64,000 bases of DNA from Roseibium denhamense (lineage in GTDB: Bacteria; Pseudomonadota; Alphaproteobacteria; Rhizobiales; Stappiaceae): positions 1 through 64,000 of the forward strand of contig NZ_SMLZ01000115.1 in NCBI RefSeq assembly GCF_009711415.1, given 5' to 3'. Below are positions 12,764 through 13,291 of the stretch, in pieces. The first letter of the stretch is position 1. Each line of letters opens with the position of its first letter. The translations under genes and the position numbers were made by a program. The notes under the pieces are model-generated. The model was not told the DNA's origin. It saw only the letters and a program-made list of their open reading frames with translations, and did no database searches.

Positions 12764-12804
12764 GCATCCCGCATTTGGGTGGGAGCGGATTTGAATGGGG
12801 TCAC

Positions 12805-13077
12805 TTTGGTATAATACCAAAGACAACTGGTTATGACCCATCTGACCGGGTTTGGAGGGCTTTCGGATAGGCGCATGGTGCCGGGCGATACGGTGTATCG
12901 GTCAAGACATGCAACGCAGCCGAAGGCCCTCCAAACCCGGCCTTAGGTGGCCTTTTCTCGCTCCCCGGACATCGTTTCATCGCTTGTCCGGTCAACCAGA
13001 CCGCACGGCGCGATGCGCCTCGCCGGAAAACGAGAAGAGATCATCAGATGGGTTATAATCAATTGGCTTTGGTATAA
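12805..13077. repeat. 273-bp multi-branched inverted-repeat element (possible structured RNA or MITE-like element)
   Basis: An intricate nested palindrome. Outer arms 12812-12845 and 13044-13077 match at 29 of 34 positions. Directly inside, arms 12846-12866 and 12920-12940 match at 20 of 21, enclosing two small hairpins: GGCGC-ATG-GTGCC at 12870-12882 and CGATAC-GGT-GTATCG at 12886-12900. A second branch (TTCTCG 12955-12960 with CGAGAA 13031-13036) encloses CCGGACA/TGTCCGG (12965-12991) and GGCGC-GAT-GCGCC (13007-13019). The left end is also a 19-bp palindrome (12804-12822). The whole can fold as a three-way junction. Three of the four transition differences in the long stems stay paired as G-U if the plus strand is transcribed. 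No gene, target-site duplication or transposase is visible. Confidence 0.75.
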
Positions 13078-13235
13078 GGCCGAGCTGGCTGACCGCTGAG
13101 GGAGAGGAGAGGGCGGTTGGCTTGCCTGGCATTTGGCACCCTGAAACCCTTTGAGGTTTCGGGGGACCCGTTTTCACGAGGGCCAGAGGACGCGATTTCC
13201 AGCCCCGTTTCCATCGGGTGATTATTGTTTAAAAA

Positions 13236-13291
13236 ACTTGAGTGTTATCGTCAAGTATAAAGTTGAGTATCATACTCATATTTTGTATGGT
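13236..13291 (+). promoter_or_regulatory. Two RirA-type iron-responsive operator boxes and promoter of hemP
   Basis: Two copies of TGA-N9-TCA, the operator form known for RirA. Box 1 is ACTTGA-N9-TCAAGT at 13236-13256 (core 13239-13253). Box 2 is TGAGTATCATACTCA at 13264-13278, a perfect palindrome. The boxes share TTGAGT and lie 25 bp apart. A plausible promoter, TTGAGT (13263-13268), 17 bp, TATGGT (13286-13291), puts its -35 inside box 2, so bound repressor would block polymerase. The match is seen; the regulator is inferred from rirA next door. Confidence 0.75.

Follow-up and report, generated by a model that had tools for sequence, protein, structure and literature searches.

A MITE with paired, inverted hairpin modules downstream of rirA in Roseibium denhamense

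Between rirA and hemP of Roseibium denhamense lies a compact palindrome, which follows the rirA terminator and ends about 160 bp before two iron boxes. Does it encode an RNA that takes part in iron control, or is it a mobile repeat? The sequence-only reading of the window, that is, the whole stretch of 64,000 nucleotides analysed here (contig NZ_SMLZ01000115.1, positions 1 to 64,000), had proposed either or both. We conclude that the palindrome is a MITE, a non-autonomous, gene-less transposable repeat found in dispersed copies, and that its interior contains a single hairpin module twice, in opposite orientations.

Ends and fold of the palindrome

Comparison of about 60 copies places the ends of the element at 12814 and 13075, with TAA on both sides. 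The palindrome previously read at 12805-13077 is real, but positions 12805-12811 are flanking DNA that extends it by happenstance. From left to right, an outer arm is followed by hairpin A, the mini-hairpin, hairpin B and the other outer arm; bit scores in the following list refer to R1, a covariance model built from hairpin A.

12814-13075, no strand: whole mobile element, ATACCAAAG...CTTTGGTAT, 262 bp; ends from comparing about 60 copies
12812-12814, no strand: left TAA, TNA target duplication; from comparison of copies
13075-13077, no strand: right TAA, TNA target duplication; from comparison of copies
12814-12845, plus strand: left outer arm (terminal inverted repeat); pairing, with two-sided changes in 19 of 27 consensus pairs (35 copies)
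13044-13075, minus strand: right outer arm (terminal inverted repeat); pairing and two-sided changes
12847-12939, plus strand: hairpin module A, sense on plus; R1 91.6 bits, covariation
12940-12948, no strand: mini-hairpin linker between the modules; consensus columns 130-138
12949-13042, minus strand: hairpin module B, inverted copy of A, sense on minus; R1 58.3 bits

The outer arms are 32 nt long with 88% complementarity, and the inner stem (12846-12866/12920-12940) spans 21 nt with one difference. Both had been described from the sequence, as had the three-way layout and the G-U pairing on the plus strand at three of the four long-stem transition differences, and all of these are indeed present. 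What had been missed is that the inner hairpin at 12949-13042 repeats the one at 12847-12939 in inverted orientation. Given that R1 finds the former on the opposite strand (E 8.7e-15), the interior of the element consists of two inverted module copies of about 93 nt each. On either strand, the inverted repeats fold far better than chance would allow: the plus-strand RNA has an MFE of -142.5 kcal/mol (z -10.4) and the minus-strand RNA one of -140 kcal/mol (z -10.05), and none of 200 shuffles matched the element.

The left flank has a feature of its own. Positions 12803-12814, CTTTGGTATAA, are identical to the family's right end with TAA added, and could be what is left of an earlier copy, or else a target that is itself palindromic. 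Another locus (L014) shows a similar junction, GGTATAATACC.

Dispersed copies and insertion sites

The element has no coding capacity, and its copies are multiple and dispersed. Sequence searches of the same genome revealed a second, nearly full-length copy at 90% identity, together with a partial copy of 181 bp (98%) and a deletion derivative of 81 bp. Across the sampled genus (Roseibium/Labrenzia), BLASTN matched whole or partial copies in 18 of 36 other genomes, some of which carry at least a dozen, and the covariance model matched 54 and 39 modules in two Roseibium genomes. Target duplication is evident from the flanks: of the 55 copies whose ends are good, 43 are flanked by TNA on either side, and the middle base is identical in 34 of these 43, as compared to a permutation mean of 16.05 (0 of 20000 permutations reached 34). 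In 33 relatives, the rirA locus gave no match to the element, and in the 16 whose sites were read, a conserved block, ...AAAAGGCCGGGCTGGCT, comes after the rirA terminator, either immediately or past unrelated sequence. The rirA-hemP element is a recent insertion in this Roseibium lineage. Dispersed gene-less copies, terminal inverted repeats, a duplicated target and an empty orthologous site are the marks of a bacterial MITE, and the mobile-palindrome option of the sequence-only reading is borne out by copies at unrelated sites with target duplication and by the empty site in relatives.

Insertions avoid genes, and other copies adjoin unrelated genes, in gaps whose flanking genes are tandem, convergent or divergent. 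The target TNA is the exact stop codon of the adjacent gene in 20 of 50 insertions, where 10.6 would be expected (z 4.5) if all TNA sites within the same gap were equal, with genes taken from a simple gene caller. This excess could be due to target choice or to the survival of harmless insertions. Eight deletion derivatives of 81-173 bp lack at least one of the two modules, the missing DNA having apparently been deleted between short repeats at the base of the hairpins, and in one copy (L052:1048-1310) module A is inverted, leaving both modules sense on the same strand.

The family extends well beyond the genus. R1 matches were obtained in 30 of 289 alphaproteobacterial genomes (about 10%; 27 of 224 genera) and in 25 of 299 Pseudomonadota genomes, other classes included, with tens of modules in some. 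Loci in those genomes mostly have the same layout at 250-290 bp, with terminal sequences that differ between groups (TACCAA, TAGAGC, CTAGGG and TTAGCCC). A plasmid of Thalassospira marina bears one such repeat, and the plasmid and phage collections gave no match outside this species. Rfam, at gathering score, gave no match for the element or for its relatives in ten other loci.

The rirA-hemP gap itself varies. Downstream of rirA, other sequences occupy it at four loci (L143, L149, L150 and L201), and a palindromic repeat, GTCATTGC.GGACTTGATCC.GCAATCCA, is present there in the last three, which suggests that insertions often land in this gap. Between the element and hemP, window positions 13077-13290 form a segment conserved in 35 Roseibium genomes, in which 43-56 bp are 90-98% identical between species with about 78% identity in their rirA DNA. 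On its minus strand, the segment starts at the iron-box side and continues with a conserved GGAAATCGCGTCCTC, then a variable hairpin, CCTCTCCTCTCCC in a loop and a terminator-like GGCC plus T-run. Judged by these motifs, it looks like a small RNA gene; it had no Rfam match. The mobile element is located exactly at the T-run.

Covariation and wobble in the hairpin modules

Covariation, which the sequence-only reading had named as a check, proved to be massive in whole copies as well as in modules. In the set of 35 full copies from Roseibium, two-sided changes occur at 60 of the 83 pairs and 93.9% of cells are paired, versus 78.6% when shuffled and 33-43% when slid; among 125 distinct modules, all 35 pairs change two-sidedly, with 89.8% of cells paired versus 63.2% (shuffled) and 35-43% (slid). 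The predicted module helices are thus kept by compensating changes across Pseudomonadota. Beyond Watson-Crick pairs, the top covariation is that of columns 30/86, which exchange C-A (40 clusters) for A-G (28 of 75 clusters). Columns 42/73 show this exchange too and switch together with 30/86, and the conserved G-A positions 29/87 and 41/74 adjoin them. We infer that these columns form tandem G-A-type internal loops.

Wobble pairs were counted on the 35 pairs predicted identically from sense and antisense alignments; a count on the plus strand alone was discarded as biased for module B, the pairs having been predicted on that strand. Read inward from their own end, the modules contain 409 G-T cells versus 69 A-C cells, and the excess is present in A modules, in B modules and in modules of other genera. 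Among clusters at 80% identity, 59 favour G-T, five favour A-C and 11 tie. Base composition accounts for part of this excess and not for all of it, as cluster representatives show a G-T:A-C ratio of 217:44, compared to 333:202 after shuffling. The outer arms have little strand bias (tip changes WC>GT 23.6 versus WC>AC 19.1). Given that G-T is tolerated and A-C is not, the modules would be constrained as single strands, A on plus and B on minus, indicating a single-stranded fold for which RNA and ssDNA are equal candidates on sequence grounds. The plus-strand RNA hinted at earlier holds up for module A, which appears constrained on plus, but not for module B, which appears constrained on minus, nor for the near-neutral outer arms. 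The pattern is therefore one of predicted strand-specific folding of the modules and not of one plus-strand RNA.

On a tree of 52 copies, pair-keeping changes outnumber pair-breaking (non-wobble) changes by 97 to 16 on internal branches, with 62 versus 77 on terminal branches, which include long ones. We take this as an indication of selection on the fold in the spreading lineage that is relaxed in resident copies.

Movement, alternatives and known relatives

TNA and TA targets fit the IS5 family. In two non-Roseibium genera, the short ends of the repeat appear to resemble, in part, those of IS5-family (DUF4096) elements of the same genome: in G567, the repeat end CTAGGGTCCGTACTCA and the insertion sequence end CTAGGGTCAGGACCCATTG both begin CTAGGGTC, and in G587 the corresponding ends are CTAGGGTCTGGACCCATAAA and CTTAGGCTTCAGACCCATAA. 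An autonomous element with TACCAA ends was not found in Roseibium, be it with the pattern TNATACCAAMSNSAA in six genomes, with TNATACCAACCG, one mismatch allowed, in the richest genome, or by a TIR search at DUF4096 and DDE_Tnp_1 transposase loci. The sole long end pair (L081:809-2185) is a 160-bp deletion copy split by an unrelated IS5-family IS (255-aa transposase, TA duplicated) and not a parent.

We consider it likely that a MITE inserted downstream of the rirA terminator, that its modules fold single-stranded and aid its spread, and that a transposase of the IS5 kind serves it in trans. For the insertion just 3' of the terminator in this Roseibium lineage, a DDE transposase of this kind would have cut the ends and joined them at TNA/TA. 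Each module, read inward from the nearer end, would fold as a single strand and promote spread, as RNA in read-through transcripts or, alternatively, as an ssDNA hairpin in transposition or replication. The fold seems to be required by the propagating lineage and to decay in the resident copy, and it implies no function in iron control. The outer arms could stay alike through symmetric transposase binding without any folding. A bolder version is possible, if rather doubtful: the repeats might be gene-less transposons of one superfamily that relies for its mobility on a conserved module, folded as a single strand (RNA or ssDNA) and containing two tandem G-A-type internal loops. One module per strand would lie just inside each end, and the ends would be swapped to match different IS5-like transposases.

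The adjacent rirA gene, the nearby iron boxes, the strong fold and the strand-specific wobble of the modules would all suit an RNA of this locus, cis-regulatory or small, that takes part in iron control. Such an RNA is nonetheless highly improbable and we reject it, given that the element is absent from the orthologous sites and that other copies lie beside unrelated genes in gaps of all three orientations; because it belongs to a mobile repeat family spread across Pseudomonadota, the element is no iron-control RNA peculiar to the rirA-hemP gap. The modules might instead act mainly as RNA in resident copies, protecting or terminating the transcripts of neighbours in either orientation, with hosts retaining the insertions. 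One sense module near the 5' end of each strand, the avoidance of genes and the stop-codon excess agree with this, as does a wobble excess of module A that lasts on terminal branches (about 17 versus 3); yet pair-breaking changes are common on those branches, divergent gaps carry copies too and no T-run follows the hairpins, and we hold such a role to be quite unlikely.

Could the repeat be a plain decaying MITE with a functionless fold, its arms complementary via shared transposase binding or via template-switch repair of palindromes during replication? Deletion derivatives are common, the inverted module A of L052 is a DNA-level rearrangement at a palindrome and outer-arm changes are nearly strand-neutral, all in keeping with this explanation. 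However, the module stems covary though they are not terminal repeats, and template switching would account neither for a six-to-one preference of G-T over A-C nor for the coupling of columns 30/86 and 42/73, which are non-canonical, so that this explanation, too, is unlikely. A MITE whose modules fold as single strands and aid its spread is the reading that we prefer.

Bacterial MITEs are usually viewed as insertion-sequence debris. In the present family, compensating and even non-canonical covariation maintains an RNA-like module across bacterial classes in an element that has no genes and whose ends change, so that the idea of a structured strand as a working part of a DNA transposon becomes testable. 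If the module is necessary for movement, the finding would be stronger than that of an ordinary MITE. The repeat model can be used for annotating many alphaproteobacterial genomes. It also carries a caution, namely that strong covariation alone is no proof of a host regulatory RNA.

Searches of the open literature returned related kinds only (MITEs, CIR, REPINs and Br-REPs) and no description of a paired-hairpin repeat. Known bacterial MITEs, including Correia/NEMIS, RUP, ERIC and others (PMC2229807, PMC10969869), are likewise short, gene-less and intergenic, with terminal inverted repeats, target duplication and transcripts that would form long stem-loops. The Roseibium element differs from them in its build, with a conserved hairpin module present twice, in inverted orientation, within about 260 bp, in the deep covariation across Pseudomonadota classes and in ends that vary by group around a persistent core. 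CIR repeats of Caulobacter and other alphaproteobacteria are also intergenic, with two arms joined by a linker, but they are described as about 110 bp long, with GANTC at the hairpin loop and no end-to-end pairing (PMC2229807), whereas our element pairs its ends and measures 262 bp, which sets it apart. GANTC is absent from 46 of 56 elements, the window copy included. REPINs are not known to leave a target duplication. Similar to our element, the mobile unit of REPINs and BIMEs, which are mobilised by RAYTs, comprises two inverted hairpins (PMC3116915, PMC2817692); in contrast to these, the Roseibium element duplicates its target and has terminal repeats, and no match to Y1_Tnp (PF01797, RAYT-type) was found in its own genome or in seven of the 11 others tested. 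Br-REP1 and Br-REP2 of Bradyrhizobium (PMC5082802) are alphaproteobacterial repeats as well, forming stem-loops in 3' UTRs, and their published consensus, compared by eye, is unlike the module. We would class the element as a new, structured variety of MITE.
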